A DNA stretch of 64,000 nt from Salinivenus lutea (GTDB lineage: Bacteria; Bacteroidota; Rhodothermia; Rhodothermales; Salinibacteraceae). Numbering within the stretch: the stretch's first letter is position 1; each line of letters begins with the position of its first letter. The notes beneath the pieces were generated by a model, which saw only the letters and a list, made by a program, of their open reading frames with translations, ran no database searches and was not told the origin of the DNA. This document shows positions 6,991 through 45,075 of the stretch, piece by piece. A program made the position numbers and the translations under genes. The stretch covers positions 1 through 64,000 of the forward strand of contig NCRC01000002.1 of the NCBI GenBank assembly GCA_002894685.1, in the 5' to 3' direction.

Positions 6991-7081
6991 ACCTTTGATC
7001 GCCGCCGCGTCTTCGCCCCCCAGGGCCACTGCCCCACTCACTGGGCCCCCGTCGCCGCGCATCAAGGCGCTGAGCCAACTG

Positions 7082-9209
7082 CTAATCTTGAGAGCCTAGC
7101 TCCAGAAACGGACTGGGGGCGTCGTGGCAGGTCACGATCACGTCTCGCCTCGCACGGGTGACGGACACGTACAGCAGAGACCGTTCACGCTTCCGGACCT
7201 CCGTGCGGGTCGCCTCATCCTCCGCCTTCGAGAGGGCGGGGTCGAGGGGCACGATTCCTTCACTCGCGCTCGAACTCCAGGCCCTTCGCCCGGTGCATCG
7301 TCGCCAGGCGAACGCCCGATGCCGAGCGGTCCTCGGCCTGATCATTCCGGATGGGGTACGTATCGAGATCGGCCGCCCGGAGGGCCCCGCTGTAGCTGTC
7401 GAGAAGCGATTTCGTGCGAGCAATGATGCAGGTGTCGCGCAGCGCCTCGCCCGCCGCCTTCTTCTGCCGGAGATAGTCCGTGATCGCCTCGGTCTCGGCC
7501 TGAAACGTCTCGAAGGCCTCCACCCGCGGCTCGTCCCCTCGCATCAGCGACTTGTACACCGCCTGGTCATCGGCCCCGCCGTCCAGATCGTCGTAGTCGA
7601 CGCCCTCCAGGAGCCCGACCGCCCACCGGCGGTTCTCTTCGGTCGTGCGGTAGTTGACGCGCAGCTTGTTGCCGCGCCCGACAATGTTGATGCCGCAGTG
7701 CCCGAGCACCACCTGACGGTCGTAGATGCGCTGATGGGCATCCCCGACGATGAAAAGGTCATTTTCCTGGTCGCCCCCCGGAATCATCTGCCGGACAAGC
7801 TTGAAGGCCTGCTTTCCCATGTCCTGCGCCTCGTCGACGAGAATGGACTGGTAGGGCAGGATGTCGCCCTGCTCTTCCAGCATGTGGCGGGCATCGCGCA
7901 GGGCGCCGGGCCGCTCCCGAAGCCTGTGCTCGTCGAGCAGCGACTGGTACTCGTCGAAGACGGGCCAGATCTTCGCTCGCTCCGAGCGCTTCAGCGGCGT
8001 GCCCCGTCCAATCCGGCGCACGCGCATGTAGTCCGCTTCGGACCGGATCCCGTTCGGCTGAATGACCTGTTCCCATTCGTTTCGGAGGAACGTTCGGTCG
8101 CGCCCCTCCGGCCCAACCATCAGGGCCTTGTCCCACAGGTCCTCGGCGCGGCCCCGGTAGTCAATCGTGTACTCATACTCCTGCCGCCGGAGAAACCGCG
8201 AGAGCCACGCGTCGAGGTTTGTCACTTCGATTCGCTCCAGGACCTCCGGGGAGCCGATCAGGCGGAGGTTCTCTTCGATGTCGGCCGCGAGGTTGCGGGT
8301 GAACGTCGTAAAGAGGAGCTGGTCCGCGGGGTCGGTGAAGACGTTCCCCGCGAGCCAGACCGCCCGGTGCATCGCCACGACGGTCTTTCCCGTTCCGGCG
8401 CCGCCGAGCACGCGGACCGGGCCGTTGGCGTGCATCGTGACGAGGCGTCGCTGCGTCGGATGCAGGAACACCCGCCATTTTTCCAGCGGCGCCTCCAGCA
8501 TCCGCTCCAGCTCCGCATCGTCCTCAAGGACCGCAAACCGGCGCTGCGAGTTTGGGCGCTGCAACGCCGTCGCGTAGTCGTCCGTGTCGACCTCGTCGTT
8601 CTGGCGGGAATAGGAAAGTTCGTTGTCTACCTCCCGCCGGGAATACCCGGCTGCAAGGAGAAAAAGCGCCTCGTACGCTTCCTGCGGAAGATACCGCTGA
8701 AGGTCGTCGAGCTGCTCCTCGGTCCGAATGCTGCGGACGAGCGGCATCAGCTCCTCCGGCACGCCGAGGCGGACCAGCTCCCGGTCGCGGTGCTCGGCAA
8801 AGAGATCGGAGGCGTCGTCCGCATCGTCCTCGGCCGCCGTGTCCCCATTCGACACCGGCACCGCCCCCTCCTCCATCGGAATGACCTGGAGGCTCCCCGT
8901 ATCCGGATGAATCTGGACGATCCGGTTCCGCGCCCACTGGTAGGCATCGTCGTGGTGGTCCACCCAGAGGAGCATGTACACATTGCCTGCGTCGGGCGTC
9001 ATCACGATGCCCCGGTACGCCTGGTCGATGCGGACCGACCGCAGCTTCGGGTCTTTGGCCCCCTCGATTTTCTCGTAGTTGATGCCCGGCAATTTGGGGT
9101 TCTGCCGGAACTTGGTCATGAACCGACGGACCTTCTTCTGTTTGGTTTTCGGGACCTCGGAGAACGCCTCCAGAAACTGATCGGAGATGGCGACTTTGAC
9201 GTCAGGCAT
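7082..9209 (-). pseudogene. UvrD/Rep-type helicase with N-terminal RelE-like domain, frameshifted near motif V
   Basis: From the ATG at 9209, residues 1-100 form a RelE/ParE-like domain (VAISDQFLEAFSEVPKTKQK, RSVRIDQAYRGIVM). A superfamily 1 helicase follows: Walker A GGAGTGKT at 269-276, Walker B ILVDEAQDMG, and motif V start MHRAKGLEFE. At 7260 the frame hits TGA. The missing end resumes in another frame as ASEGIVPLDPALSKAE and motif VI LLYVSVTRARRDVIVTCH, ending at 7082. UvrD-type proteins normally have a short hydrophobic strand between LEFER and the SEGIVP segment, so a small out-of-frame deletion there explains the break. Only 51 bases separate it from the DUF1998 helicase upstream, so the two were an operon. 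As written it would make a 649-residue protein lacking motif VI and is probably inactive. Confidence 0.85.
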
Positions 9210-9260
9210 GAGGGAGGAGACACCGATTCAGCAAAACAGAAAAGGGGAACGCAGAAGTGA

Positions 9261-12200
9261 CTACGCCTCCGCAAGCAGGGCCTCAATCAGGCGTTCCGGC
9301 TCGTCCCCCACCTCAGAGAGGAGATACACGGCCCATCCGGTGTCCTCAAACACGTCTCGGTCGGTCTCTTGATCGGAGGCCAGAACGGCCACCTTGGCCC
9401 CCGGCCAGGCCAGTTCGGCCGTCCCGATGATCTGACCATCGCGTCGGGGCTCATAGGCCAGGTCCGGAGCCGGAATCTCGGCCTCGTACAGCGCCTCCAG
9501 GAGGCCCGACACCGGATAGGGCGAGTAGTCAGCCTCCGCAAAGGCTTCGTCCCACGCCTCCTCGTCGAACGCCCCCAGGTCCTCTCCCTGAGGCACATGG
9601 TCCGCGAGCGAATCCCGCCCCGCGGATCCAAGGAGCTCGTCGTAGCTCCGGAACGCATCGTCGTCGGCCGTGACGGGGTAGGCGGCGGGGACAAACTGGA
9701 AGAGATTGTAGAGGCGCAGGAATCCGTTCCAGTGCGCTTCGAAGTCGTCGGCCTGTTCCTCCTTCCGGTCATCGAGGTAGAGGGCAAGGGTGAGCCCGTG
9801 GCGCGCCCGGTCGACGTCCGAGGGGAGGGCCTGGGCGGCGGCCGGGGAAACAGCGGCCCAGAGGGTCACGGGGTCCTGGCCCGACGCCCCCTCCCGCAGC
9901 CCCAACAGCGTGTCTTCGTCGGCGTGCCCCTCCAGGTGAGCCACCAGCGGGTCCGGGAGCCGGGCCTGCGCCGCGGAGCGCCATGCCTCCGGGTCGGACT
10001 GTTGTTGCGCGAAGAGAAGCCCCTGAACGAGAGCGACGTTCTCGAAGAGCGATTCGTCCTGGGTCTCCAGGAGGCACACCAGCCACTCAAAGCTACCCCG
10101 ATCCACAAATTCTTTGACCGTCCGCGACCGACTCTCCCCCGTTGCCGCCAGGAGCTCCGCGTAGTCATCCGACGCCGGCTTCAAAAAGTTGCGGGCGTGA
10201 ACCGTGCGTTCTTTCATCACGTCGCGCCAGCTGAGCGACCACACGGTGTACTGCCCGCTCGCGCGGAGGGCCCTGCGTTGGGCGAGGTCCGTTCCGATCC
10301 GGGGTCGGTGGTACTGCAGTCCATCCAGCAAGACCGCAATCGGGCGCATCTCCGCGCCGTGCGGCCGGATCACGAAGTCAATTGAGCAGCGGCGCGCCAC
10401 CCCGTCGGCGGGTCCCACGAGGACCTGCGGCTCGATGTCGTAGGTGTGCCCCGCAATCTCAAGCTCGTGCCCGTGCTTCTGCCCCACCGTCTTCTTGTCC
10501 AGGCGGGACGGCTCCACGTCGAGGGTCCGCAGCCGCTCCAGAAAGCGCGCCTCCAGCTCACTCTCCAGCACGCCGTGGACCGGAATCTCGTCCACGGTGT
10601 CGATTTCAACGAGGTCATCTCGGCGTGCTACCAGGTCCTCCAACAGCTCCTGGGCCGCCGACCGGGAGGTGTGCGGCATGTCGTAGTGATTGCGGTAGGC
10701 GTAGAGACAGCGGTAACAGCCGTCCCGGTCCGCATCCTCGATACAAGAACAGTTCTGAATCACGTCGAGGGCCTTTTCGAGAACCTTCAGGAGGATCTGC
10801 TCCTCTCGGAGAAGGGTGGCGAGGTACCCGGTGCCGCCCGGCACCGAATCGTAGACGAGAAGAAACCGCCGGCGGGCAATCTCCTGGTCCCCCGGCTCCT
10901 CCTGAATCGCCGTCTTGAGGTGATCGACCGAGCCGTCAAAGTATTCCTCAAGCCCCAGCTCAAAGGCCGCCTTGAAGGACTCCACCTTCTCCGGGGTCCC
11001 GGCGAACGACGTTTCGGGCAGCAGGATGCGGAGGGCTTCCGACTCGATCTCGCGGTACAGAAACAGAGATTCCGGATCGGGGGCCGCGCCGTTCTCCTGG
11101 CGGGTTGTGCAGGACCGCGTGTGCTCGATCGGGGCGTCGCCGACGGCCACTCGCCCGCAGGCCGGACATGTGAGGAAGGCCTCCCCCTTGATTTCCTGTC
11201 CGCCGACGTCCATCAGGGGCTGCTCGCGGGGCCGCCCGAAATTCACCTCGCGAAACGTCCCCTCCTGGATAAACTCGAACCCGAAGGGCAGGTCCTCATC
11301 GTCGATGCGGTAGGCCGTCTCGACCGCCTCCGACTCAAAACTGGCAAGGAGCTCCGTCTCGAAGAACTCCCGCTCCCGCCCGTCACTCGAGTCGTCAATC
11401 CGGCTCTTGCGGTCGGCGGTCGTCGCCCGCACCTCGTCGTGGCGGATGAGGGTCCGCTCCTGCCCCTGATCGCTCCATCCCGGGCTCCCACAGCGCGGGC
11501 AGGCGGTCTTCGGCGAATGGTCCGCCACAACCCGTTCCATGTAGGCACACTGGTCGCAGAACCGCCACCGTTCGAGCACCTCGTCGCCGGAGAGGTCAAT
11601 CTGATCGACCTGCACGCGGCGTCCGTTGGCGTAGAACGTGGCGCCCGGCGCCAGCTCTCCGAGCGCCTGCGAGGCCGGACGCACAAACTCCTCGTCCCAC
11701 ACCTCCTGATTCCCCTCCTTCGGGTTCCGGTACAGAATGGAGCGCAGGGTGACGCCCGACTCCGGAAACGCGTAGTTCGGCAGCAGCCCCGCGTCGGTAA
11801 AGAAGTTGTAGGTATTCTTCTCCCCGATGCGCTGGTAAATGTCCTGGAGCGCAGTTTTCTCCCGGCGCATCTCGTCGAGCTCCCGCTCTTTCTCGCCTTT
11901 CACCGGGCCGTCCTCCCTCTTGCGGATCTCGCGGTACAGGCGTCGGCTCCGGCGGTGCAGTTCCGTTCTCCGCTTCTGAATCTCGCCCAGCCGCTCCAAC
12001 ACGCGGGTGTCGATGCCCCCGTCCGACGCAACAGCCTTGCGCAGGGCCTCGGCGCGGGCTGGGCTGAGCACATCGCCGAAGAGGTCGACGAATCCGTCGA
12101 AGAGCTCCTCCTCGTGATCGTCGACAAACGTGAGCCAGGTGTGGGGAAACACGTTCTCGTCGTCGAGCCCGCGCAGGACGGTACTGAGCGTAGAGGGCAC

Positions 12201-15200
12201 GGCGTCCTCCGAGACGCCCCCCGCGATCCACCGGTCAAAGCAGTACGCGACGTACTGGCGCAGAAGCACCTCCACGGCCCCCAGAAAGACGCCCGGCGGC
12301 GCGATGTCCCCGTCGATCATCTCCGTCGGGTCCTCAAAGAAGTAGAGGTCGTGGGGCCGCCCGTTGGCCACGGTCACGTCGACCGCGTTGCCGGACCGGC
12401 GCCCCCCGCGCCCGATGCGCTGAACAAAGTTCGACGGACTCGGCGGCACCGAGCAGAGAAACACGCTGGAGAGCTGCCCCACGTCGACGCCCAGCTCCAG
12501 CGTCGGCGTACAGGAGAGGAGGTTGGGGTCCCAGGGCTGCCCGTCGTCCGCTTCGTCTCTCTGAAAGGAGGCCTCCAGCGCCTCCCGCGGGCCGCGACCG
12601 AGCAGGCCCGTGTGCTCCCGCGCAATGATTCGCTGCAGGTCGCCGCGGCTGTAGAGGCGTCGGTAGTAGTTTCGCTCCGACGCTTCGGGGGCGTACGTGC
12701 CCGTGCACGGGTAGCGCAGGCAGGGCGTCCCCGCCCAGTCGGGGGCCGCCGACCGGGCCACGGAGGCGTTGTGCCCGCACTGCCGACACCGGACCTGCGC
12801 GACGTCGTCCGTGACCAAAAGCGCATCCGGCCGGAGGCCCCACACGCCATGTCCCTTCCGGGTGGACCGGCGCTCCAGCAGGTTCGCCCCCACCAGGGCG
12901 CTCAGCGCCTGCGGGTACAGCGCGTCGAGGACGCCCTCCAGCAGGTCGTCGCGGTGGCGAAAGCACTTCAGGGCCCAGGCTTCCAGCCAGCTGTTTCCCT
13001 GCGCCCCGGAGGTCAGGATGGGATCGAAGCGGGAGGTGCTCTTCTCGGAGATAAAGGCGGGAAGGCGGGAGGCCTGTCTATAGTTTGGCATGTGCTTTTT
13101 GTGAGCCCCGCTGATGACGTAGCTGTCCCCTCCACGCTCGATGTAAGTTCCCAGCTCCGGGTGGAAGACGGCGCCCTGGTTCTTGAGGTGCTGCAGGAGC
13201 CCCGCGAGGAAGCCCCGCCCTTCGGTCTCCGTCACGTCCCGGAGGTTGCCCAGGTTCTGGAGGCGCGGCAGCAGCGTTTCGGTTGCGTCCCGGAGCCGAT
13301 CCCGGTCGGGCCCCGCGACGGACGAGCCGGTCTTTTCGAGCGTGCGGCCAATGCGGGCCCGAAAGCCGTACTCGCTCCACACCTCCCAGCTCAGCCGACG
13401 GCTCAGGTCCGCCACGAGGGTCGCCCCGTCGGGCAACCGGCCCCGCTCCCGGAGCGCCTCGTACTCCCGAAACCACTCCATGTCCGGCGCAATGAAGGTG
13501 GAAACGAACGCCGTCTCGCTCATCCGCTCTCGGTACTGCGCCGCCACCTGTTCCTGCAGGGCCTCCAGGGACGTCGGCTCGCTCCCGTCCACGACCTTCT
13601 GGATCGCGCCCCGAAGATTGAAGCGGTAGGTCCGCGCCTCGAAAAAGCCCGCCCGGTGGGCCGCGTCCTGCACCGAGTCGGAAAACGTAAGCAGCTTTTT
13701 GTCCTCGTTGTGGGACGAGGCGTAGAGCTGAGAGATGAGGACGCTCGTTAGGCTCGCCGCCCGCGACCCGACGATCGTGAGGCCACCCCGCGTGCCGCAG
13801 AAGGGACAGTCGTTGCTCCCAACTTGGGTGCCGTCCTTTGTGGTCTTGCGGTTCTTGGGGCGGAAGACCTCCAGGAGTTTGTCGGCCCGGCCGCACGACT
13901 CGCAGTCGTCTGCGCGGCGGCCGCTAAATTGCAGGTCGTGCCCGCAAAGCTGGTGACGCGTCCCTTCGGCCTCAACCTCTTCGCCCGGCGCCACCGGAAA
14001 GGCAAAAGAAAAGGTCGGCTCGTCGTTGAAGTAGCGGCGGTAGATGCCCTTCAGGTCCGAACGAAAGCGGCTCTCGTTCTGCCGATGGATGCCGACCCAG
14101 CCCATTGCCCCGCACTCCAGGCAGTGCGCCACAGGCAGGTGCGGTTCTCGGCCCCGCGCCTCCGGCAGATCGTCCCAGAAGGTGAGCGTCGGATTCGCCT
14201 CGATGCTCGCCACCATGCGCCGCAGCTCGCGGAGCCAGAGCTGACTGCGCATCTGCACGAACGGAACCAGCTCCGTGTCCCCGTTCGCCTCGGTCGTGGA
14301 GCGGGCCCACGAGAGCAGCGCCAGAAAGCTGTCCAGCGCCGCCCGGCGGTACGCCTCGGAGTTGCTCTCTGGGAGAACGGAACGCGCCTCCAACGCCTCG
14401 GCGACCGCGTCCGCCGGCCGGGGCGCCCCATCCAGCACCGCCAGGAGGTCGCGGAGAACGACGTGCCCCCGGAGCGCCTCCCCCAGCCGGACCGTGCCCG
14501 CGTCCGTCCCGAGATCGGGCGCTACGCACTCCCCAAACCAGAGCTTCGCCTGCGCCTCCACGTAGGATTTCGGCGACGTGTACGCGTCGGGGCGCAGATC
14601 GTCGAGACGGTCCGGGCCGGGGATCTCGGTGTGGGTTGGCGGGCGCAAGAACGCCTCGGCGGAGACCCGCTTCTCCCCGATGACCGCGCCCGCCTCAAAG
14701 GGCTGGCCGAACACGTCCTCCGCGTAGTCGCGAAGCGCCCCGACGTCCTCCGCGCCCCCGAGCGTGGCCGAGGTGCCGACGCAGCACAGCGTGTCCGTCT
14801 CCGTGCCGAGCCGGTCCGTGAGGCGGCGGAGGAGGCAGGCCAGGTCCGTGCCCTGCGCGCCGTCGAACGTATGCAGCTCGTCGACCACCAGGTAGCGGAG
14901 CGTCTCCGGGTCGTTGTAGCGCCAGAGCTTCGCGTCCGCCGGGCGGGTGAGCAGGTAGTCGAGCATCTTGTAGTTCGTCAGCAGCAGGTCCGGCGGGTGC
15001 TGCCGGAGGATCTGCCGGCTCGTGATGACGTGCTCCGGGCCCATCCGGATCGTGGGGTTCTCGTCTTCGTCGCCCACGTAGAGCCCCACGCGCGTGCCCT
15101 CCAAGGCGTCGATCTCGTCGACCGCCTCCGCGATGCGCCCGGCCTGGTCGTTCGCCAGGGCGTTCATCGGGTAGATGAGAATGCCCTTGATGCCCTCCTC

Positions 15201-15560
15201 CCCCTTGTGCCGGCGCACGCAATCGAGCACCGGCCACAGAAACGCCTCCGTCTTGCCCGACCCCGTGCCGGTGGCCACCAGGGTCGACTGCCGCTCGTCC
15301 CCGCTCAGGCGCTCGAAGGCCTCCGCCTGGTGGGCGTACGGCGGAAAGCCGAGGGGCACCTCCGGAAAGTAGTCCGACCCGTGCCCGCTGTGCCGAAAGG
15401 GCAGGTCGACGTTGACGTACGGCCCCTTGAACACGCTGCCGTCCCGGTCCAGAAGCCGGTCCAGCATCCCGTGGAAGTGGGGCGTCGTGGTCGGGAAGGT
15501 GGTGCGCAGGAAATCTTCGACGCCCGTCTGGAGCTGCGAGGTGAGGACGGAGGGGAGCAT
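9261..15560 (-). CDS. Giant DEAD/DEAH helicase with DUF1998 and C-terminal nuclease-like domain (DruE / DrmA-DrmB / MrfA-like)
   Basis: 2,099 residues from an ATG at 15560. Superfamily 2 helicase motifs are clear: Walker A ATGTGSGKT (96-104), VVDELHTFDGAQG (225-237), SAT (264-266), and later QRIGRGGRRSG as motif VI. Several Cys pairs (CLECGAMGW, CESCG, CRQCG, CDQCAYM, CPRCG) suggest zinc knuckles. A DUF1998 region closes with CSCIEDADRDGCYRCLYAYR, the four-Cys signature of MrfA/YprA and DruE proteins. After it comes a DUF559/Vsr-like nuclease fold (LESELEARFLERL, CSIDFVIRP, VLLDGLQYH). The size and order match Druantin DruE best, but a fused DISARM DrmA+DrmB is an alternative. It lies between the pPIWI-RE trio and the RelE-UvrD pseudogene, all in the same direction. 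Its first 20 codons are duplicated at 22471-22530. Confidence 0.85.
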   Translation of the reverse strand: MLPSVLTSQLQTGVEDFLRTTFPTTTPHFHGMLDRLLDRDGSVFKGPYVNVDLPFRHSGHGSDYFPEVPLGFPPYAHQAEAFERLSGDERQSTLVATGTGSGKTEAFLWPVLDCVRRHKGEEGIKGILIYPMNALANDQAGRIAEAVDEIDALEGTRVGLYVGDEDENPTIRMGPEHVITSRQILRQHPPDLLLTNYKMLDYLLTRPADAKLWRYNDPETLRYLVVDELHTFDGAQGTDLACLLRRLTDRLGTETDTLCCVGTSATLGGAEDVGALRDYAEDVFGQPFEAGAVIGEKRVSAEAFLRPPTHTEIPGPDRLDDLRPDAYTSPKSYVEAQAKLWFGECVAPDLGTDAGTVRLGEALRGHVVLRDLLAVLDGAPRPADAVAEALEARSVLPESNSEAYRRAALDSFLALLSWARSTTEANGDTELVPFVQMRSQLWLRELRRMVASIEANPTLTFWDDLPEARGREPHLPVAHCLECGAMGWVGIHRQNESRFRSDLKGIYRRYFNDEPTFSFAFPVAPGEEVEAEGTRHQLCGHDLQFSGRRADDCESCGRADKLLEVFRPKNRKTTKDGTQVGSNDCPFCGTRGGLTIVGSRAASLTSVLISQLYASSHNEDKKLLTFSDSVQDAAHRAGFFEARTYRFNLRGAIQKVVDGSEPTSLEALQEQVAAQYRERMSETAFVSTFIAPDMEWFREYEALRERGRLPDGATLVADLSRRLSWEVWSEYGFRARIGRTLEKTGSSVAGPDRDRLRDATETLLPRLQNLGNLRDVTETEGRGFLAGLLQHLKNQGAVFHPELGTYIERGGDSYVISGAHKKHMPNYRQASRLPAFISEKSTSRFDPILTSGAQGNSWLEAWALKCFRHRDDLLEGVLDALYPQALSALVGANLLERRSTRKGHGVWGLRPDALLVTDDVAQVRCRQCGHNASVARSAAPDWAGTPCLRYPCTGTYAPEASERNYYRRLYSRGDLQRIIAREHTGLLGRGPREALEASFQRDEADDGQPWDPNLLSCTPTLELGVDVGQLSSVFLCSVPPSPSNFVQRIGRGGRRSGNAVDVTVANGRPHDLYFFEDPTEMIDGDIAPPGVFLGAVEVLLRQYVAYCFDRWIAGGVSEDAVPSTLSTVLRGLDDENVFPHTWLTFVDDHEEELFDGFVDLFGDVLSPARAEALRKAVASDGGIDTRVLERLGEIQKRRTELHRRSRRLYREIRKREDGPVKGEKERELDEMRREKTALQDIYQRIGEKNTYNFFTDAGLLPNYAFPESGVTLRSILYRNPKEGNQEVWDEEFVRPASQALGELAPGATFYANGRRVQVDQIDLSGDEVLERWRFCDQCAYMERVVADHSPKTACPRCGSPGWSDQGQERTLIRHDEVRATTADRKSRIDDSSDGREREFFETELLASFESEAVETAYRIDDEDLPFGFEFIQEGTFREVNFGRPREQPLMDVGGQEIKGEAFLTCPACGRVAVGDAPIEHTRSCTTRQENGAAPDPESLFLYREIESEALRILLPETSFAGTPEKVESFKAAFELGLEEYFDGSVDHLKTAIQEEPGDQEIARRRFLLVYDSVPGGTGYLATLLREEQILLKVLEKALDVIQNCSCIEDADRDGCYRCLYAYRNHYDMPHTSRSAAQELLEDLVARRDDLVEIDTVDEIPVHGVLESELEARFLERLRTLDVEPSRLDKKTVGQKHGHELEIAGHTYDIEPQVLVGPADGVARRCSIDFVIRPHGAEMRPIAVLLDGLQYHRPRIGTDLAQRRALRASGQYTVWSLSWRDVMKERTVHARNFLKPASDDYAELLAATGESRSRTVKEFVDRGSFEWLVCLLETQDESLFENVALVQGLLFAQQQSDPEAWRSAAQARLPDPLVAHLEGHADEDTLLGLREGASGQDPVTLWAAVSPAAAQALPSDVDRARHGLTLALYLDDRKEEQADDFEAHWNGFLRLYNLFQFVPAAYPVTADDDAFRSYDELLGSAGRDSLADHVPQGEDLGAFDEEAWDEAFAEADYSPYPVSGLLEALYEAEIPAPDLAYEPRRDGQIIGTAELAWPGAKVAVLASDQETDRDVFEDTGWAVYLLSEVGDEPERLIEALLAEA
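15501..15560 (-). repeat. Helicase 5'-end direct repeat, copy 1 (within the intact gene)
   Basis: The first 20 codons of the DUF1998 helicase match 22471-22530 at 56 of 60 bases. The final 43 bases, up to and including the start ATG, are identical. The two copies flank the three-gene pPIWI-RE cassette in the same orientation. Confidence 0.9.
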
Positions 15561-15620: not shown

Positions 15621-18086
15621 TTAAATCGTACGGGGATGGTCATCGGAAATGGCCTTCGCGAGATGCAGTGGCACCGGGTGCCGGAGCGTCCCTTCCCAGT
15701 TCAAGGCAAACCGGCAGAGAAAAGCAGCGTACTTGCCGAGGTTCTGTGCGTCGAACGGTCCTTCCTTGGCGACCCAGAATTCCCGCGCGACAAGGCTGTG
15801 TTTGTCCTTTCGCCGGTTGGATTCAGTCATGTGAATCCGAGAATGTTTGCGATGGGCTCCTGGCCTACTAAAGGTCTTTGATTCCGCCACGTAGTAGAAT
15901 GCACTCGGCGCTGCCCCCTCTAGCACAAATCCAGTGTCTTTTCCTTGAGGGGGCTTCGGAAGCGTCCTTTCATCGAGCTCCTCCCATTTTCCGTTGCCAG
16001 CCGGTTTCGGGACAAGATCACTTCCAGAGCGCGACCGGACGACAGCGGCGTTCATACGCTTCAGCACCTCCGGAACGGAAGCATCGCTGTTCTTATCTCC
16101 GACGAAATTCCAGATGTGACTGAGAGTCTGATTTCCAAAGAGAATATAAGGCCCCGACATTTGTCGTTTTAGTTGCCGAAGGCCGCTCGCTAGTATGTTC
16201 CCTATCTTGTCGTGGTCACTAGAAAATCTGCTCTCACTGTGAAGACTCGTTGTCGCTCGACCTATGGGCTGCCAGCCATCTCCCTTGCGATGATCATAGG
16301 CAAGGAAGCGCTTCTCAGCCGGCTTCGTAGCAACAAGGACGAGGTCGTAGCCGGAGGAGTGCTGACGGTTAGCATTACGTTTCGAACAGTATGCTCCAAT
16401 CAAACAAGGCGGCTCATTTGATTTGACGTTCCGAACGGAGAGCGGGACGGGAAAGAGTCCGGCGCCTCTCATCAAATCCCAGACCGACCGCTTGCCGGCA
16501 TAGTTCGGCTCGTCGCTCAGTTCTTCCCGATCCACTGCATCCTTCGACTGGATAAACTGCGTGAGCACCCCCTTCTTCGCGAGTTGGGCTCGAAGCTGTT
16601 TTTTCGGATCAACAGCGTTGTTTCCGCCTCCTTCCCTCACCAGGTCACCGGAAAGCGTCTCCGCGATTACCAGTAAATTCCTGCCCGGCTGCTGATAGGA
16701 GTCTACGATCGGAGCAACGGCATCGATGGCCTTTGTGCCGTCGCTATACTGCGTCAGTACAGAGTCGGCGGGAAACGACTGAAAAACGCACTTCAGTCCG
16801 CAGACGAGCGTTGCGATTGTCCCGTCCTCTACGCTCAGTTCCTCCTCCGTTGCGTGGAAGACCGTTTTGAGCGCCTCCCGAACGCGGTGTTGTACGTCCC
16901 AGTTCTCGTACAACACAAGAATCAGCGGCGACTGCTCGGCTGCCTCGACCATATCAGCCAACCGCTCTTTTGAAGGCCCCTTCTTTTGTTGCTCCTCCTC
17001 ATCAGTCAACTTAGAAATGTAGTACTTCGGCCCGCCCTGAAAAACCAAAGGATCGGCTTCCGGAACGGCTCGACGGAGCCAGTGGGCCACCGCGTCGTGA
17101 AAGAGCTGGGTCGCCCCTTTTCCAATCGGATGATTTCGGGAGTGGTTTTCGGGAATCATCCGTAGTTGGTCTCTCACCTCCCCTGGCTCTGAATCTGGAT
17201 CGGGGAGCCCCTGATCAAAGTGCTCAAGAACCTCTACAGCCCGATCCCTCCAGGCTCGTGTCCCCGTTTTCCGATTTGCACGCTGGGACGGCTTTTCCCG
17301 GTCCCAGCCGATCTCGGCTTGCAACAAGAGCTTGTCTTTTCCCCGGTTCACCCAGCCCCGTTTTACCTTCTCCCCACGATGACGGGTGAGACGGGAAATA
17401 GACGGTGTTGCCTGTATGACAAGATCCTCAACCCCGGGCACTGTCATCGGATTGAGCTGCACACGATAATGGGCGTAGCCCCCTTTTGACGGCACGTGCA
17501 AGCGCTCTTCGCCCCAGCTCAGGAGCTCGCCCTCCGTATCGAGTCGCATTGGGACAGTAGACCCATCCTCAATGAGAAGCTTAGACGACCGAAGCCGCTG
17601 TGCCACCTCCCAGGTGGCAACGTTGTAAACCCAGGATGGGGGAAGGGGCGTCTGTTCACGCCTGTACTCGATTGCCTCATCCACAGAGACATGCCGTCGT
17701 CGAAGATTCCCAACCGCATTGGCGAGGCGAGTGGACGGAGTATCCGTGATGGTCATTTCCCAGGCGGCGAGAACCTCTGGAAGCCATTCATCCACCGGCT
17801 CCCGAGAGAGCAGAAACAAATCATCCCGCCAATAACTCCCCGACCCCTGAATAATTTGGACAAGATCAGTCACATGCAGGCGTAGCGCAATCTGCAAGCT
17901 GGCGGTCGGCATCCATTTTCTACTTCCCCGCGACCTTTGGCTTTGATGTCGATCTGTGCGGGCTTTGTGAACGGCCTTCCAGGCTCGCTGAAACTCCCTG
18001 CCTGCCTCGTACTGGTATATGCTTCCCAGTGATGAAGGCGTCGTTCGAATGGCACACGTACGCAAAAATCGATTTGACGGTGACAT
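15621..18086 (-). CDS. pPIWI-RE family protein (prokaryotic PIWI-fold, RNase H-like)
   Basis: 821 residues from an ATG at 18086. Its N-terminal segment (FLRTCAIRTTPSSLGSIYQ, SREPVDEWLPEVLAAWE) matches my memory of the pPIWI_RE X domain (DUF3962). The middle (SPLILVLYENWDVQHRVRE) fits the MID-like part, and the C-terminal 350 residues fit the RNase H-like PIWI module (LLVIAETLSGDLVREGGGNN, LRAQLAKKGVLTQFIQ, GAYCSKRNANRQHSSGYDL). Family knowledge: pPIWI-RE proteins are named for conserved Arg and Glu residues and are predicted to act with a DinG-type helicase and an REase on invading nucleic acids. Exactly those two genes lie upstream in the same direction, which makes the call strong even without a profile search. 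It probably forms an operon with them. Guide and target types are unknown. Confidence 0.85.
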   Translation of the reverse strand: MSPSNRFLRTCAIRTTPSSLGSIYQYEAGREFQRAWKAVHKARTDRHQSQRSRGSRKWMPTASLQIALRLHVTDLVQIIQGSGSYWRDDLFLLSREPVDEWLPEVLAAWEMTITDTPSTRLANAVGNLRRRHVSVDEAIEYRREQTPLPPSWVYNVATWEVAQRLRSSKLLIEDGSTVPMRLDTEGELLSWGEERLHVPSKGGYAHYRVQLNPMTVPGVEDLVIQATPSISRLTRHRGEKVKRGWVNRGKDKLLLQAEIGWDREKPSQRANRKTGTRAWRDRAVEVLEHFDQGLPDPDSEPGEVRDQLRMIPENHSRNHPIGKGATQLFHDAVAHWLRRAVPEADPLVFQGGPKYYISKLTDEEEQQKKGPSKERLADMVEAAEQSPLILVLYENWDVQHRVREALKTVFHATEEELSVEDGTIATLVCGLKCVFQSFPADSVLTQYSDGTKAIDAVAPIVDSYQQPGRNLLVIAETLSGDLVREGGGNNAVDPKKQLRAQLAKKGVLTQFIQSKDAVDREELSDEPNYAGKRSVWDLMRGAGLFPVPLSVRNVKSNEPPCLIGAYCSKRNANRQHSSGYDLVLVATKPAEKRFLAYDHRKGDGWQPIGRATTSLHSESRFSSDHDKIGNILASGLRQLKRQMSGPYILFGNQTLSHIWNFVGDKNSDASVPEVLKRMNAAVVRSRSGSDLVPKPAGNGKWEELDERTLPKPPQGKDTGFVLEGAAPSAFYYVAESKTFSRPGAHRKHSRIHMTESNRRKDKHSLVAREFWVAKEGPFDAQNLGKYAAFLCRFALNWEGTLRHPVPLHLAKAISDDHPRTI

Positions 18087-18137
18087 GAGCCAAAAAAGAG
18101 TTGGAGATAGGAAACTGTGAAGCGAAACAGGGCGACG

Positions 18138-21100
18138 TCATCCCTGCTGGCGGTCGGCAAGATCCTCCAAAGCATAGACGAGGGACCCGTGGAGGTCCTT
18201 CATTTGCTCGTATTCTCCCTCCCGCCTCCACCAGTCAAGAAGCTCAGAAACGATCTCCGGCCACGTCAACCGCCCGGTCCAAAATGCCCCATCCACGAGG
18301 TGCACGTCGGCGCGCGTGCCACCCCGTCGGGCCCGCCCGGCCAGTTGGAGCAGTTCAACGAGGAGATTGGCCATGAGATGGTGGCGAACCACCGGCTTCA
18401 TGCGAGAGAGATAGGTGGCGTTGGCCTGAAACTCGTGCCGTTGAGCCTCTGCGCGACGACGAATGTCGTCCAGTCGCTCCTTCACACCGATACTCGCCCC
18501 CGTCTGCGCAACGCCGTAGTTGGCATACGCAAGAAGGGACGTGACATCTCCAACCGGAGGCACCGGGCGCACCATCAGGTAGATTGCCCCCAACGCGGAA
18601 TTCCCCGACGCGTCCACGATGTTGTGACGGCGAGCCACCACCTTCAGTGGAGCAACCAATACGCTGGCCTCCGTTTCCGGAAACTGCTCGATGTCGTGGC
18701 GCCGAAAACGCCACGGCGCGTCGGTCGGGTCATCGTCAGGCAAGACCGTCCGAATGCCCAGGTCGCTCTCGGTCTCCAGTGCGCCGCTGTTGCGAAGGCC
18801 GCGTGTCACCCAACGAGCCTCGTCGTAGCTTCCCGTCACGGCGAGGAGTTGGTCTGCCGACGTGTCTTCATCACGCTTCAATTCCTCAACGTGTCGCCGA
18901 AGATCAGGAGCAAGCGTTTCGGCCGCGGATCTCGTCTCCTTCTCACGCTCGGAGCGCAGTGCAAGGCCGGAGATTCGATGAGACGGCCGGTCCGGTTCTC
19001 TTTTGTGCGCCTCCGTCCGATAAAATTGAATCTGACGTTTTCGATCCGGTTGCACAAGCCAGTTTGCTCCATCACAATCGAATAGAGGGCTGCCCGCAAA
19101 GTGCCCGGACGCGGACAGGCCGACGACGGCGCGTTTGTGCGCACAAACGCCCTGAGCCGTGATTCCGCCCAGTTCTCGCACTTCTCCGTGAGGATCGCCC
19201 GCAAAGCCCTGAATCTTCAGGTGTTGCACGTCACCGTCGTTCTTCTTAAAAGAGAACCCGTACGAATGTCGCTGTAAAAGCCCAGCCGGACTGGGGCTGA
19301 CGGCCCCGAATCGCTGGAGGGCGTTGTAGAGCGTACGCCCGGCCTCCCGGTCCGCTGAAAGGAGGCGTGCGACGCGAGCCTGGATCTGCTGGAAGGCGCC
19401 TTCGATCTCTCCCAGAGCAGCCCGAAGAAATAGGTTTTTCTCAATTTGCTTGCGCTCGCGGGCAGACGGCTTCTCCTCCGGCCAACGCCACGTTTCCAGG
19501 GCCTCCCGGAGCTGCAGCACATGGTCGCGCACCCTCTCGCTGGGTTGCTTCAACGACCACGTCGTGATCGGTTGCAGGGCCGCCCGGACATTTTGCTCAT
19601 GCGACTGCAACTCCGCTTGGCCGGCATCGCCAACCAGGCCTTCCAACCGCCGGTAGGCCGCCTCGCCGTCGTCCTCCGTCGGATCGACCCCGTACAGACG
19701 CTCGACCAACCAGGCATCTTCCTGCCCGCTCCACCGCATGGACTGCCACTCCGGCCAGTCGAGATCCCCCTCGTCAATGAGGGTGACGATCTCTCGGGCC
19801 ATCAACTGGACAAACGCAAGTGGGCGGGCAAGATCGATCATTCCGTCTTGCAGCGCCGCCTGCTGCGCCTCTACGATCGTGGTGGGAGCGGTGTCGGCCT
19901 CGTACAGCGAGACACTGGACACTTTCATGTCCACGGCCACCTCCTGAAACGAATCGACCTCGTCGACCAAAACCAGCCCGCACCGATGGAGAAGCGATTC
20001 CTTAATGCTCACTTCCTGCGGTCCGCGATCCGACGGGTCGGGAAATTCCACAGGGTAACGGCATTGCCCGCTCAACAGGCTGTGATGGTTCACAACCACC
20101 ACGTCTGCTTCCAATGCGTTGCGCTGCAGCGCCGGTCGGCCGCAGGAACCGCCCACGGGACAGGAGCGGAACGCTGTCGTCCCGTCTTCGCCTAACCTAA
20201 AACACGGCTCTTTTCCAGGATCTGGTGTACGGTCGGGATCTTGGGCGTACGCCTGTAGGAAGCAGGAATACCCCAAACGATTCAGGACAAACGATTCTCG
20301 GTCCCCTTCCCCATTCGACACGCTCCCGTCTCCATGCTGGAGCGCGTCCGCCGTTTTCTCAAAGAGGCTGCGGGGGGAAAAGAGCGGCGCGACCTCGAGA
20401 TCTTTCCATCCGAGATCACGAGCATGGCCTTCGATGGCCTGAACCGTATCGACTACCTCTTGAATGTCGGAGACGACAACCGCCGTCGGGGTGCCCCTAT
20501 GGGCCACGTCCATGGCGAACAGCTGGGACAGAATCGATTTCCCGGACGCGGTGGGGGCTACGACCAATTGCATCTCTCCATTTGGAACGGCCACCCCATC
20601 TGGATCAGCGGAGCCCTCTTGACGGAGTTCAATATTTTCGAGAAAACGATTGAGGACGTGAGGAATGTGCTCTTTCGCCTCCCCGTTTTGGTCGGCAATG
20701 CGCTGGGCAAGCGTCCGTAACCGATTCGGTTGAAGCACGACGTCTGCAGCGGGTGCCGGATCGAGAGCGACGGGGTCGAGATCATTCCTATGCGACGCGG
20801 GAATCTCATAAGTAGTATGACGATCCTGAACCCGAATGACCCGATCCTGTCCGCGACCTTGGAGACGGTCTCTCGACTGCTCGTCGGGCGGCTCGGCGGC
20901 TTCGCGGACCGACCGCTCTGCCTGAAACTCGTCCCAAAGGGCGTCAATCAGGGGGTCGAGCGGCTTTCCTCCGCCGTAGGTGTACCGTTTCTCCTCGGCC
21001 GACTCGATGAACCGGAGGTCGTACGTGCCGTCTTCGATCATCTCACCGGCCAGCCGCTCGAACCGGTTCCGAGAATCAATTGACGACGACTTCCGGAGCA

Positions 21101-21266
21101 CGAACGTGGCGAGTTGACGCTGCACAGCGGGCGACTGCTCGCCCCACTCAGGCCATGCAGATAGCAGTCCGGTGGCGAAGACCGCCGCGTCTCCAATACG
21201 GGGCGTGTCGAAATGCCGGACGCCAAACAGCAACGCGAGAAGACAAGAGAGTTTCGTAAAGCTCAT
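18138..21266 (-). CDS. DinG/XPD-like helicase of the pPIWI-RE system
   Basis: 1,042 residues from an ATG at 21266. Walker A is APTASGKS at 237-244. The Walker B variant is LVLVDEVDSFQ, and the DinG hallmark VVVNHHSLL sits just before it. A cysteine cluster (YSCFLQ, EPCFRLG, SCPVGGSCGRPAL) between motifs Ia and II is placed like the Fe-S cluster of DinG/XPD helicases. The first 200 residues are a family-specific N-terminal extension. Motif VI-like residues occur near the C-terminus (LLQLAGRARRGGTRAD). The family role is DNA unwinding for the PIWI and REase partners. It sits 51 bases upstream of the PIWI gene and 23 bases downstream of the REase gene, so the three are almost certainly co-transcribed. 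Confidence 0.85.
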   Translation of the reverse strand: MSFTKLSCLLALLFGVRHFDTPRIGDAAVFATGLLSAWPEWGEQSPAVQRQLATFVLRKSSSIDSRNRFERLAGEMIEDGTYDLRFIESAEEKRYTYGGGKPLDPLIDALWDEFQAERSVREAAEPPDEQSRDRLQGRGQDRVIRVQDRHTTYEIPASHRNDLDPVALDPAPAADVVLQPNRLRTLAQRIADQNGEAKEHIPHVLNRFLENIELRQEGSADPDGVAVPNGEMQLVVAPTASGKSILSQLFAMDVAHRGTPTAVVVSDIQEVVDTVQAIEGHARDLGWKDLEVAPLFSPRSLFEKTADALQHGDGSVSNGEGDRESFVLNRLGYSCFLQAYAQDPDRTPDPGKEPCFRLGEDGTTAFRSCPVGGSCGRPALQRNALEADVVVVNHHSLLSGQCRYPVEFPDPSDRGPQEVSIKESLLHRCGLVLVDEVDSFQEVAVDMKVSSVSLYEADTAPTTIVEAQQAALQDGMIDLARPLAFVQLMAREIVTLIDEGDLDWPEWQSMRWSGQEDAWLVERLYGVDPTEDDGEAAYRRLEGLVGDAGQAELQSHEQNVRAALQPITTWSLKQPSERVRDHVLQLREALETWRWPEEKPSARERKQIEKNLFLRAALGEIEGAFQQIQARVARLLSADREAGRTLYNALQRFGAVSPSPAGLLQRHSYGFSFKKNDGDVQHLKIQGFAGDPHGEVRELGGITAQGVCAHKRAVVGLSASGHFAGSPLFDCDGANWLVQPDRKRQIQFYRTEAHKREPDRPSHRISGLALRSEREKETRSAAETLAPDLRRHVEELKRDEDTSADQLLAVTGSYDEARWVTRGLRNSGALETESDLGIRTVLPDDDPTDAPWRFRRHDIEQFPETEASVLVAPLKVVARRHNIVDASGNSALGAIYLMVRPVPPVGDVTSLLAYANYGVAQTGASIGVKERLDDIRRRAEAQRHEFQANATYLSRMKPVVRHHLMANLLVELLQLAGRARRGGTRADVHLVDGAFWTGRLTWPEIVSELLDWWRREGEYEQMKDLHGSLVYALEDLADRQQG

Positions 21267-21289
21267 GCGGAGAGCGTGTGGGAAGTGGT

Positions 21290-22420
21290 TTACGAGGACG
21301 TGACTCGGTTCACGAATTGGGTCATAGTTTCGACATGATATCCAAGCGGCTGATTGGCCTCGTCCAGGGTTTTGAGATGATCCGCGCGCACATCCGGAAC
21401 CACGACGTGCATGATTGGCCGGTCCGGGGAACGGGGCGGCAGCCGACTGATGCTGTATCCAGGCAGCGTCCAGTCCTTTACGTCTACCTGATACGACGCA
21501 TCCGGCGTCTCTACCCGTAGATCGTAGGCATCAAGTTTCGGCCAAAGCGTTGTTTGAACGTTGTCGTGGCGCTCAAGCTGATCTTTAAGCTCAATCTCGA
21601 TGAGACCGGGCAAGACGGTGTACCGCCAGATGCCGCGCCGAAGACATACCAACGAGCCCGCCTCCCAAAGCGGCGGAGCATCGTAGGATGCTCTTGCCCC
21701 AATTCGACAGCGACCGTCCGTCCATACATCCACCGCAGCGCCCTCATCTGCACACCGAGGCGATTGACATGACAGCCGAACCGGCTCCTCATTTGTGCTG
21801 TCTTGCTCACGCCGAAGGGGATACCCGCACCGGGGACAGGGTACACAGACCTCTTCTCCGTTTACTGACACGCGACAGGAACCCGGTATTTGCGTTTCAA
21901 ACAGTTCGTAAAACGAAAGATCATGTTCTGTCGCAAACGCCATGGCATCGATCTTCGGACGGACTGGCTCCTCAATCAGATGCCGTCGAAACGTCCGGTA
22001 TTTCTCCTCTGCATCCATCCGGTCGGAATTTCCTAAAAGGGACTGCCGTACGGTTTCCACCACCTTCTGGGCAACCTCCAGTCGGGGCTCGGGGCCGTAT
22101 TCGTCCAGGAGAAACTCCGTGTAGCTGGTGACTTGCAGCCCGCTATAGGTTGATTCCAGAAGCGGAACCGCCTCCGCTTCATTGATCCATTCCCTGGTTG
22201 GCGCTCGAAAACGATCGAGCAGTGTCCCGGGCCGCCCGCTTAGTTGATCAACAGCGCCCTCCCGATATCGATAGTATTCGGCGCCCGCCCGCATAAGCTG
22301 CTGTAAGGCGGTCTCGCGTGAGATACTCGGGGCACACCACTGCTTAGCCGCCCGGGCGCACTCGCCGAGCAGAACATTGGTCTGCATGACCCTTGATGAG
22401 GCTTTTGATTCAAGAGGCAT
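21290..22420 (-). CDS. REase-domain protein of the pPIWI-RE system
   Basis: 376 residues from an ATG at 22420. A zinc-ribbon is seen at 195-223 (CPRC at 195-198, a further pair at 218 and 223). The C-terminal part has a PD-(D/E)XK-like core: LIEIEL (Glu 275/277), KLDAYDLRV (Asp 297/300) and YQVDVKDW (D313-x-K315). This matches the REase component described with pPIWI-RE proteins. It is the first gene of the trio. The AT-rich 50 bases before its start (22421-22470) probably hold the operon promoter; TTGG followed about 19 bases later by TAGACTTA is a weak match to the Bacteroidetes -33/-7 pattern. A nuclease role is inferred from the motif. Confidence 0.82.
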   Translation of the reverse strand: MPLESKASSRVMQTNVLLGECARAAKQWCAPSISRETALQQLMRAGAEYYRYREGAVDQLSGRPGTLLDRFRAPTREWINEAEAVPLLESTYSGLQVTSYTEFLLDEYGPEPRLEVAQKVVETVRQSLLGNSDRMDAEEKYRTFRRHLIEEPVRPKIDAMAFATEHDLSFYELFETQIPGSCRVSVNGEEVCVPCPRCGYPLRREQDSTNEEPVRLSCQSPRCADEGAAVDVWTDGRCRIGARASYDAPPLWEAGSLVCLRRGIWRYTVLPGLIEIELKDQLERHDNVQTTLWPKLDAYDLRVETPDASYQVDVKDWTLPGYSISRLPPRSPDRPIMHVVVPDVRADHLKTLDEANQPLGYHVETMTQFVNRVTSS

Positions 22421-22470
22421 ATCGAAAAGTAAGTCTACTCAAAAAAATTCCAGGGAACCAATATTTTTGT

Positions 22471-22530
22471 GGTGCGCAGAACGTCCTCGACGCCCGTCTG
22501 GAGCTGCGAGGTGAGGACGGAGGGGAGCAT
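22471..22530 (-). repeat. Helicase 5'-end direct repeat, copy 2 (orphan scrap)
   Basis: This minus-strand segment would encode the first 20 residues of a DUF1998 helicase (begins MLPSVLTSQLQTG), with Phe17 replaced by Val. It differs from copy 1 in 4 of 60 bases, so it looks like a diverged homologue's 5' end and not a fresh duplication. It has no continuation to the left, where the pPIWI-RE promoter begins. Confidence 0.85.
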
Positions 22531-22681
22531 CTACGGTAGACGGGTCCTATGTCAGTGCTGGAAAGGAAGCTCTTTTGAAGAAAATATAGGGGAGACGCCT
22601 CTCGGTTGGAACAGTCTCTTCTGTGCAGTTTTCGTAAACAACCCGATTTTCCTACGTAGGAAAACCGTTGCCTTCACGAAA

Positions 22682-23755
22682 ATGGCAAAAATCAGCCAGA
22701 ATAGATTTGGACGCGTGCTCAGGGATCGGATCACTCAACGGGAGATGTATGCCCCGTTGAAGACCAGAAAATGTCAGTTTGAACCACCGTGCGTCGACGG
22801 ACGCCAGCCTGATCTCGAACTCACGTTTGCGTGGGGAGATCGAGACGTCTCGTTCGTCGCTGAACTCCAAGCGCGCTCCTCTCCTCGCCAGGTAAAAGAG
22901 GCTCTTCGGAACTTACAAGAACGCTGGACTCGGGATCGGGGCAAGAATGCTCTGCTTGTACTGCCGCACATCTCCCCTTCTGTCGCGGACCTGCTTGAAG
23001 AAACAGGTCTGTCTGGAATCGACCTTAACGGCAATTATGTGCTTCAAACGGATGACTTCGTGGCGATCCGCCTTGACCAGGAGAACAGGTACAAGGAGGC
23101 TGGAGGCATAAAAAATGTATTCCGGGGCACGAGTTCGATTGTATGTCGGTACCTCCTTCACGAGCCCGGTCCACACGAGAGCGTGAGCCGAATCCACGAG
23201 AGGATACAGGGCCTCGGTGGGCGCGTATCCCTCTCGACTGTTTCGAAGGTTCTCAGCACCCTAAGCGACGAGTTGATTCTCGAAAAAGGGGATCAGATTC
23301 GGGTACTACAACCTGAGAAACTCCTGACGAACCTGCAAGACCAGTATCGTCGTCCTGAAGCTGTTGAGTCGATCCCCCTACACCTTCCCGACGAAAGGGA
23401 GGAGAAGGAAAACATCTTGACGGAATTGCTCGGCGGTGCACGTTGGATATGGGGAGGAGAAACCTCGGCTGCACGATACGCGACAACAACCCCTTCCCAG
23501 GAAGCCGTGGCATACACCCGAGACCTTCCTCGCAACGACAATCGGATCGAGAAGTATAGGGACAAGCGCTTCTACAACTGCCAGCTCCACGAGTCGCGGG
23601 CGGACTTTATCTACTTCGGACACGACGGGCACTGGGCCTCCGACGTGCAAACCTACCTGGACCTCATGCGCGGCGACAAGCGAGAGCGCGAGATCGCACA
23701 GGACCTGGAAGAACGAATTCTTAGCCGCTTCGACGCCGACACGACTGATGGATAA
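22682..23755 (+). CDS. AbiEi-like antitoxin / transcriptional regulator
   Basis: 357 residues from an ATG at 22682 (MAKISQNRFG); an upstream GTG would add 71 unconvincing residues. Residues 30-90 look like a PD-(D/E)XK-type fold without obvious catalytic purpose (VSFVAELQARSSPRQVKEAL), followed by GLSGIDLNGNYVL, typical of AbiEi-family and related regulators. A winged helix follows near 150-215 (VSRIHERIQGLGGRVSLSTV). The stop codon abuts the ATG of the nucleotidyltransferase gene, so translation is coupled. In type IV AbiE systems the antitoxin represses the operon and counters the toxin. The pair is plus-strand, unlike everything around it, consistent with a separate acquisition. Confidence 0.65.
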   Translation: MAKISQNRFGRVLRDRITQREMYAPLKTRKCQFEPPCVDGRQPDLELTFAWGDRDVSFVAELQARSSPRQVKEALRNLQERWTRDRGKNALLVLPHISPSVADLLEETGLSGIDLNGNYVLQTDDFVAIRLDQENRYKEAGGIKNVFRGTSSIVCRYLLHEPGPHESVSRIHERIQGLGGRVSLSTVSKVLSTLSDELILEKGDQIRVLQPEKLLTNLQDQYRRPEAVESIPLHLPDEREEKENILTELLGGARWIWGGETSAARYATTTPSQEAVAYTRDLPRNDNRIEKYRDKRFYNCQLHESRADFIYFGHDGHWASDVQTYLDLMRGDKREREIAQDLEERILSRFDADTTDG

Positions 23756-24625
23756 ATGGATACGTTTGACCGACTGACCCGAGAACTGCTACGGCTGAAG
23801 GCACAACTTCCGGATACGCCGTTCTTGATTGGGGGTGGGATGGGCCTCTATCTCCGCTCCGAATATCACGACAGCGGTCGGTCCCCCCGCTACTCGCGAC
23901 CGGTACCAACCCGCTCGACGAAGGACCTCGACGTGATTCTCTCCGCGGAGGTCATCACGGACGCGTCCCGTATGGATCGGATCCGCGACGCGCTCGACAA
24001 CCTCGGGTACGAAGCGACAACGGAATATTTTCAGTTTGCGCGGGAACTTGGAGAATCCGGGCGGGAGGTCGAGATCGATCTACTCACAGCACCTCCGGCC
24101 GAGGGACAGGGCGATGCGGTAAAGCAAAGGGGTATCCGGGCCCGTCCCCGCGAAAGCGAGGACATCCACGGCCGGGTGGCGGAGGAAGCCCAGTCTATCG
24201 ACCGCAACGCGATCCCCGTCGACCTCTCATCGGCGGCCGATCTGCACGGCGTCGACTTGGAGGATCCGACGATCTATATTCCCTCCAGCTTCAACTACCT
24301 CATTCTGAAGCTCCACGCCTTCTCCGACCGAAAGGACGACGCGAATGCCGACCACGGCCGCCACCACGCGATGGACATTTTCACGACCGTGACCGACATG
24401 TCGAAGTCCGACTGGCAGGATGCGGAGCAGCACTTCAACGAGGAATGTGATGAGACCTACCTCAAAGAGGCGATCGACATCCAACAACGGCACTTCGCAG
24501 AGGAGGACGACCTGGGAATCCTCCGGATTCAGGAAAATGAGGTCTATCAGCGGTACGAGGCGGAGTTCGATGAGTACCTTCCGGAGATCGTCGACGACCT
24601 AAACGATCTCTTTTCCGGACGTTGA
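23756..24625 (+). CDS. AbiEii-like nucleotidyltransferase toxin
   Basis: 289 residues from an ATG directly after the upstream stop. The nucleotidyltransferase signature is visible: LIGGGMGLYL (residues about 23-32), then RSTKDLDVIL with the paired acidic residues of the Pol-beta fold, and a third acid in EVEIDLLTAP. SSFNYLILKLHAFSDRK is the helical segment typical of AbiEii/DUF1814-like proteins. Family knowledge: such toxins transfer nucleotides to RNA, often tRNA. It pairs with the AbiEi-like gene just upstream. The substrate is unknown. Confidence 0.7.
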   Translation: MDTFDRLTRELLRLKAQLPDTPFLIGGGMGLYLRSEYHDSGRSPRYSRPVPTRSTKDLDVILSAEVITDASRMDRIRDALDNLGYEATTEYFQFARELGESGREVEIDLLTAPPAEGQGDAVKQRGIRARPRESEDIHGRVAEEAQSIDRNAIPVDLSSAADLHGVDLEDPTIYIPSSFNYLILKLHAFSDRKDDANADHGRHHAMDIFTTVTDMSKSDWQDAEQHFNEECDETYLKEAIDIQQRHFAEEDDLGILRIQENEVYQRYEAEFDEYLPEIVDDLNDLFSGR

Positions 24626-24712
24626 AGGGCCTTTCTGCCCCCACTACGGAGTCTCTCGCCGCGCGAGACCGTTGTCTTCTCTCCCTCGGGAACGGATGTC
24701 AGAACGCCAAAA

Positions 24713-24745
24713 GGCACCTCCGGAAAGTAGTCCGACCCGTGTCCA
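24713..24745 (-). repeat. Second scrap of the DUF1998 helicase gene
   Basis: Twenty-nine consecutive bases here are identical to part of 15356-15388, codons about 59-69 of the helicase (minus-strand GHGSDYFPEVP), followed by one mismatch and two further matches. Neighbouring sequence does not match. It is in the same orientation as the intact gene. Confidence 0.75.
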
Positions 24746-29428: not shown

Positions 29429-29529
29429 GGCAGAAGTGAACGTTGGCGCGAGAAGACGAGGCGAGGTGGCACCGCCGGGCTTTTGAGCCGCCCGGCAGCG
29501 GTCGGAGGCAGGAGGGCACCGGAAGATAC

Positions 29530-44350: not shown

Positions 44351-44404
44351 GGAGCGGGAGCTGTGAAGCGGGAGACGTGATGCAGTGGGAAAAGGAAGGA
44401 GAGA

Positions 44405-45032: not shown

Positions 45033-45075
45033 TGGTCCGGAGGATTGATTGGAGTATTGCCGCTCACGTCGCCGT

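Follow-up and report, generated by a model that had tools for sequence, protein, structure and literature searches.

Three adjacent genes on the minus strand of a 64,000-nucleotide (nt) stretch of the Salinivenus lutea genome (contig NCRC01000002.1, positions 1 to 64,000; hereafter the window) encode a predicted restriction endonuclease (REase), a DinG-type helicase and a PIWI-fold protein, and together they make up a pPIWI-RE system. Trios of this kind have been predicted since 2013 to act as RNA-dependent restriction systems (PMC3702460). In their order along the minus strand, the genes are:

21290..22420, minus strand: gene 1, REase, 376 amino acids (aa); Pfam pPIWI_RE_REase at 5.7e-19 and PADLOC PprRE at 1e-18; AlphaFold2 model with a predicted local distance difference test score (pLDDT) of 71.

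18138..21266, minus strand: gene 2, DinG/XPD-type superfamily 2 helicase, 1042 aa; PADLOC PprDinG at 3.1e-110.

15621..18086, minus strand: gene 3, pPIWI-RE protein, 821 aa; three Pfam models; PADLOC PprPIWI at 7.4e-69.

The intergenic gaps measure 23 nt (REase-DinG) and 51 nt (DinG-PIWI), and the closely spaced order REase, DinG, PIWI is the one published for pPIWI-RE systems. The initial annotation, made from the sequence, had proposed a complete trio from three adjacent open reading frames (ORFs) on one strand; their lengths and gaps agree exactly with those given here, and the identification is now backed by profiles, motifs, gene order and fold. All three proteins matched pPIWI-RE trio models in Pfam and PADLOC. 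A missing pPIWI-RE profile match and a missing PIWI fold, the two outcomes that had been named as speaking against a trio, were both tested for, and neither was found. It is nearly certain that these genes form a pPIWI-RE trio, and chance is excluded. That the spacing makes them one transcription unit, as had also been suggested, is plausible. The minus strand runs on, 60 bases after the PIWI gene, into a large helicase gene.

The PIWI protein combines X, MID and RNase H modules in a single 821-aa chain, with matches to pPIWI_RE_X (1.3e-22), RNaseH_pPIWI_RE (3.7e-18) and MID_pPIWI_RE (6.7e-7) that all exceed the curated Pfam cut-offs, and its PprPIWI match extends across residues 8-818. The classical Piwi model of Pfam gave no match in this protein, and a PDB sequence search with the PIWI profile detected no solved Argonaute chain, such that the likeness to Argonautes is one of fold only. 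In an AlphaFold2 model built with 18 homologues (pLDDT 72.8; predicted template modelling score 0.73), the predicted PIWI/RNase H fold is closest to Argonautes: the top Foldseek match in the PDB is MpAgo with guide RNA (E 3.8e-14), RsAgo with guide RNA and target DNA is also among the nearest structures, and all 50 matches listed are Argonaute or PIWI proteins. Within the MID module, residues E476, T477, D493, K495, Q510 and F511 are invariant across the 18 homologues.

The Arg/Glu pair that the initial annotation had singled out for checking is present as R684/E769. This pair was described as absolutely conserved in 2013 (PMC3702460). Elsewhere, the trio PIWI proteins of two genome loci (L032 and L039) and two Streptomyces plasmids (L013 and L014) carry Ala or Thr in place of the Arg together with Gln in place of the Glu, and this joint loss in one Streptomyces group is consistent with a real contact between both residues.

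The family had been described as having few experimentally studied members. It is rarely studied, but one trio member, PsPIWI-RE of Pseudomonas stutzeri, has already been characterised biochemically (PMC10991935). In that protein, cleavage is lost upon substitution D525A or D610A but not upon R639A or E718A; the gene shares a 4-nt overlap with dinG and lies in a cluster with a gene for a nuclease (PMC10991935). We mapped the window protein onto PsPIWI-RE through a 784-aa protein from an IMG/VR contig (L048), in which D526, D611, R640 and E719 correspond to D525, D610, R639 and E718 of PsPIWI-RE; because all four residues are offset by one, the L048 protein is very probably PsPIWI-RE itself or a close orthologue. 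At the positions of the catalytic aspartates D525 and D610, the window protein has S568 and G651, the second of which adjoins an alignment gap. Only the L048 protein, among 18 aligned PIWI proteins, has Asp at both positions. RNase H catalytic residues, which are kept in a subset of pPIWI-RE proteins only and do not define the family, are thus absent from the window protein, and its PIWI site is, on the alignment, dead.

Conversely, the motifs of the helicase and the core of the nuclease are intact as read from their sequences. The PprDinG match spans residues 11-1025 of the DinG protein, in which we located a Walker A motif (237-244), a DEVD motif (435-438), motif VI (974-983, including GRARRGG at 977-983) and a four-cysteine cluster of Fe-S type (335, 355, 369 and 375). 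The Walker A motif, DEVD, the four cysteines and GRARRGG are kept in all or nearly all homologues (alignments A2 and A6), such that the Walker motifs and cysteine cluster first seen by eye are both present and conserved. The REase consists of a helical N-terminal region, a zinc ribbon (C195, C198 and C218) and a PD-(D/E)xK-type core (E275, D297/D300 and D313-V-K315). The D-x-K core with zinc ribbon proposed for it is borne out by the Pfam match, which exceeds its curated cut-off, and by the invariance of C195, C198, C218, E275, D297, D300, D313 and K315 in 15 homologues (alignment A5). The Y domain described for the family carries a conserved Arg ahead of the zinc ribbon; R145 is invariant in alignment A5, and the Y-domain match of this REase stays below its cut-off.

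Occurrence of the trio is patchy. With the PIWI RNase H profile, this genome is the sole match among 394 sampled genomes of the phylum, and a search with the PIWI protein in 60 related genomes matched only this genome (none of the 12 congeners). A weak match to the REase profile in one further genome (G019; 3.1e-4, below the cut-off) has no other trio gene within the 1.9 kb examined. A single-protein scan of genome contigs gave no close relatives. The PIWI alignment was too diverged for scanning; with the DinG alignment we recovered 20 further loci that carry all three genes in the same order, mostly from Actinomycetota, with one Pseudomonas and one IMG/VR contig, and trios were also recovered from Streptomyces plasmids. 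Because these loci were retrieved by means of one short peptide pattern, the search may have overlooked closer relatives. No relative found exceeds 27% identity to the window DinG, which in a DinG tree stands apart on a long branch that clusters with the Pseudomonas and IMG/VR proteins, a placement left uncertain by long-branch effects. A phage origin was considered and rejected, as the DinG and PIWI proteins have no match in 50,697 phage records and there is no PHROG match. On the IMG/VR contig L048 (512-6065 and 6762-13205), filamentous-phage genes (a replication protein, an ssDNA-binding protein and a Zot-like morphogenesis gene) lie directly before the trio whose PIWI residues match PsPIWI-RE, and that trio may be cargo of, or neighbour to, an inovirus prophage. 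The description of the host as an extreme halophile holds at genus level; the second contig of a sister genome and the Salinibacter ruber DSM 13855 plasmid NC_007678 match the same query stretch at the same positions.

The trio differs in composition from its surroundings: G+C at third codon positions is 0.60-0.69 in its genes and 0.77-0.91 in the neighbouring genes measured. This foreign composition and codon usage points to horizontal acquisition, which forms part of our best explanation of the locus. Moreover, the trio is flanked by a 62-base direct repeat, a new finding here, one copy of which is the start of the large helicase gene. The features concerned are:

22469..22530, minus strand: scar repeat, which duplicates the opening 62 nt of the large helicase gene (its ATG and some 20 codons) and reads into a stub of 31 codons immediately upstream of the REase.

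15499..15560, minus strand: original of the repeat, where the large helicase gene begins, 60 nt downstream from the end of the PIWI gene.

9261..15560, minus strand: large DEAD/MZB (DruE/MrfA-like) helicase, 2099 aa; Pfam DEAD at 1e-19 and MZB at 1.4e-13; PADLOC DruE at 2.6e-95.

7260..9209, minus strand: UvrD-family helicase of the same module; Pfam UvrD-helicase at 5.6e-20; 3' end frameshifted.

The two copies are identical at 58 of 62 positions, in the same orientation, and the match ends exactly at the start codon; the next best match to the repeat in the window reaches 34 of 62, and the best in shuffled sequence 31-33. Two sister genomes (G007 and G005) encode large helicases 82% and 76% identical to that of the window, followed by UvrD and SbcD/SbcC-like genes, and neither contains a pPIWI-RE system. 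Since these genomes carry the helicase/UvrD module without the trio, the trio probably entered the helicase gene at its 5' end, and that end was duplicated in the process. A further 43-nt piece of the large helicase gene (nt 175-217; 38 of 43 identical) lies at 24702-24744, downstream of a 289-aa gene, and suggests more than one event; a recombination hotspot at the 5' end of this gene is possible. The 62-nt and 43-nt pieces are not the remains of one helicase copy, as their order is not collinear.

The arrangement also bears on whether the trio, the 2099-aa helicase and UvrD constitute one five-gene functional system. The large helicase does lie on the same strand across a gap of 60 nt, and in Streptomyces iranensis (L039) a helicase of the same family and a UvrD gene are found about 3 kb upstream of the trio on the same strand. 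The sister genomes, however, pair this helicase with UvrD and SbcD/SbcC-like genes without pPIWI-RE, the large helicase is unmatched in the flanks examined at other trio loci, UvrD is frameshifted in the window, and the scar suggests later joining. We consider a five-gene system highly unlikely, and the 2099-aa helicase is probably not part of the trio. A functional link to the large helicase and UvrD was likewise rejected as the default, given the module without the trio in sister genomes and its absence from the flanks examined at most trio loci. Compared with G007 and G005, where the protein is intact at 716 and 713 aa, UvrD in the window has a small deletion that shifts the frame (window 7250-7275); its C-terminal codons remain in another frame, and SbcCD-like genes are absent beside it. 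The module (window 7260-15560; L020 and L021) comprises the DEAD/MZB helicase and a UvrD protein with an extra N-terminal domain, together with SbcD-like and SbcC-like genes in sister genomes. Its members match PADLOC DruE, GajB and LmuB only partially, and the module may be an unnamed defence system.

The surrounding island is unstable. In the sister genome G012 (L076, 8953-8998), window 45344-54123 is joined directly to the 3' part of UvrD (6993-8215), such that about 37 kb including the trio is missing, and the truncated UvrD remnant there points to a deletion. This instability, together with the already broken UvrD gene, could mean that the trio is a recently acquired, non-functional passenger. 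None of its three ORFs is shortened and their conserved motifs are in place; we regard a passenger as quite unlikely.

Among the other genes of the window, an ORF of 428 aa and the 289-aa gene (22469-24625, plus strand) diverge from the trio; the listed start of the former falls inside the scar, which makes the ATG at 22683 its probable true start. This pair looks AbiE-like by eye, and no Pfam, PADLOC or plasmid match backs AbiE. A stretch from about 25017 matches a gene on S. ruber plasmids, just before genes for large secreted proteins with cohesin, dockerin and FG-GAP repeats and a Por-type sorting tail (25913-34227). An AbiL-type pair at 37304-39236 consists of an AAA ATPase (AbiLi, 3.5e-93) and an RloB-like protein (AbiLii, 8e-27). 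Genes for an Eco57I-type methylase (1622 aa), a nucleotidyltransferase, an SNF2 helicase, an AAA/SbcC-like protein and a metallophosphatase follow at 39482-53717 and likely represent a restriction or defence operon. Within 54076-54137, a copy of the 3' end of tRNA-Lys occupies 54084-54119; the whole tRNA-Lys is found further on, at C2:101216-101290, and a tyrosine integrase lies at C2:99917-101050. As read from the sequence, these tRNA-Lys copies bound an integrated element of about 47 kb that adjoins the defence island and gyrase-like genes. We had considered the trio as part of this element, but the interval between the copies excludes it. Base 1 of the window is the end of the contig.

We favour, with moderate confidence, the explanation that a complete pPIWI-RE system arrived by horizontal transfer and went into the beginning of the large helicase gene, within a defence island, where a dead-PIWI sensor, a helicase and a nuclease act against invading DNA. 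The MID pocket of the PIWI protein would hold a short guide, and the protein would pair this guide with invading DNA or sense an R-loop. It would not cut, as both catalytic aspartates are missing from its RNase H site. This recognition may then recruit or license the DinG helicase, which would open and track along the hybrid structure, and the REase would cut the DNA exposed by DinG. This scheme is based on the 2013 proposal (PMC3702460), adjusted here for the dead PIWI site. The mechanism is moderately supported; guide type, target, complex formation and anti-invader function are deduced from the parts of the system.

Several observations weigh against this explanation. No promoter was recognised upstream of the trio in a scan for sigma-70-type sites only. 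The Y domain of the REase scores 17.1 bits, below its cut-off of 26.7, and the REase model has no significant Foldseek match in the PDB (best E 0.028). In the literature searched, we found no functional assay of any pPIWI-RE trio as a defence system. PsPIWI-RE itself cuts, and the scheme may therefore not be uniform across the family. The sole in vivo result for a trio PIWI-RE is one of ciprofloxacin sensitivity and an effect on cell division, not of phage or plasmid defence (PMC10991935). This last result, in which deletion of piwi-re in Pseudomonas stutzeri raised the sensitivity, speaks for a housekeeping role, in which the trio would resolve RNA-DNA hybrids in replication or division. Such a role sits poorly with the patchy occurrence in the phylum and genus, the foreign codon usage and the location among defence genes, and we think it unlikely.

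Defence by a dead sensor, the explanation we favour, could also proceed abortively: guide-directed recognition by the inactive PIWI protein would trigger indiscriminate DNA degradation by the REase, with the helicase exposing the target, and the cell would die as in the long-B Argonaute-nuclease (BPAN) system. That system provides a precedent, and its parts list resembles the trio in outline, with an inactive Argonaute fold and a PD-(D/E)xK nuclease. However, the BPAN text consulted includes no helicase, whereas the trio has a dedicated one, which suggests local, processive cleavage, and no sequence homology to solved Argonautes is detectable. An abortive outcome is, to us, rather improbable.

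The sole experimental study found in the literature searched deals with a member whose PIWI site is active, and it did not assay defence. Because its PIWI site is dead and its helicase and nuclease are intact, the present copy allows one to ask separately if the system depends on cleavage by PIWI and if the REase acts as its effector. The copy also extends the system to a phylum that very seldom carries it, and the scar beside it records how a cassette of this kind comes to lie in a defence island.

Relative to the three-gene pPIWI-RE system of Burroughs, Iyer and Aravind (PMC3702460), the window trio shares the REase-DinG-PIWI order, the domain content, the Arg/Glu pair and the lack of a methylase within the trio. 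It departs from other members in its intergenic gaps, where genes at most other loci examined overlap by 4 nt, in its diverged DinG, and in its probable insertion where an unrelated helicase gene begins. PsPIWI-RE is likewise a trio member with the same domains and with R and E kept, but, unlike the window protein, it possesses the catalytic residues D525/D610, and it cleaves DNA under RNA guidance (PMC10991935). In BPAN, an inactive long-B Argonaute and a separate PD-(D/E)XK nuclease are guided by RNA and bring about abortive infection (PMC10620215). The likeness is solely in how the system would work, an inactive Argonaute-fold sensor with a PD-(D/E)XK nuclease, without detectable sequence homology, and the trio adds a DinG helicase. 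DdmDE is a second such model (PMC12904381): an inactive short pAgo acts with a helicase-nuclease. Several of the weak top Foldseek matches of the REase model, none of them significant, are DdmD, and HJC-type nucleases are also among them. DdmD fuses helicase and nuclease, which are separate genes in the window, and no Ddm protein profile is among the PADLOC matches. The trio belongs to neither the BPAN nor the DdmDE family. We tentatively hypothesize, as a doubtful extension, that inactive-PIWI trios are a split, guide-directed counterpart of DdmDE, in which a dead Argonaute-fold sensor would load a separate DinG/XPD-like helicase and a separate PD-(D/E)xK nuclease on the DNA of plasmids or phages, which would then be destroyed processively. 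Under the same hypothesis, the trio would travel as a cassette that enters the lead gene of another system at its 5' end and leaves a scar of coding sequence behind. Finally, the DinG of type IV-A CRISPR systems (CasDinG) is of the same DinG family, its profile matching part of the window DinG at 2.3e-8, but the trio includes no Cas genes, and the partners of its helicase are PIWI and REase.

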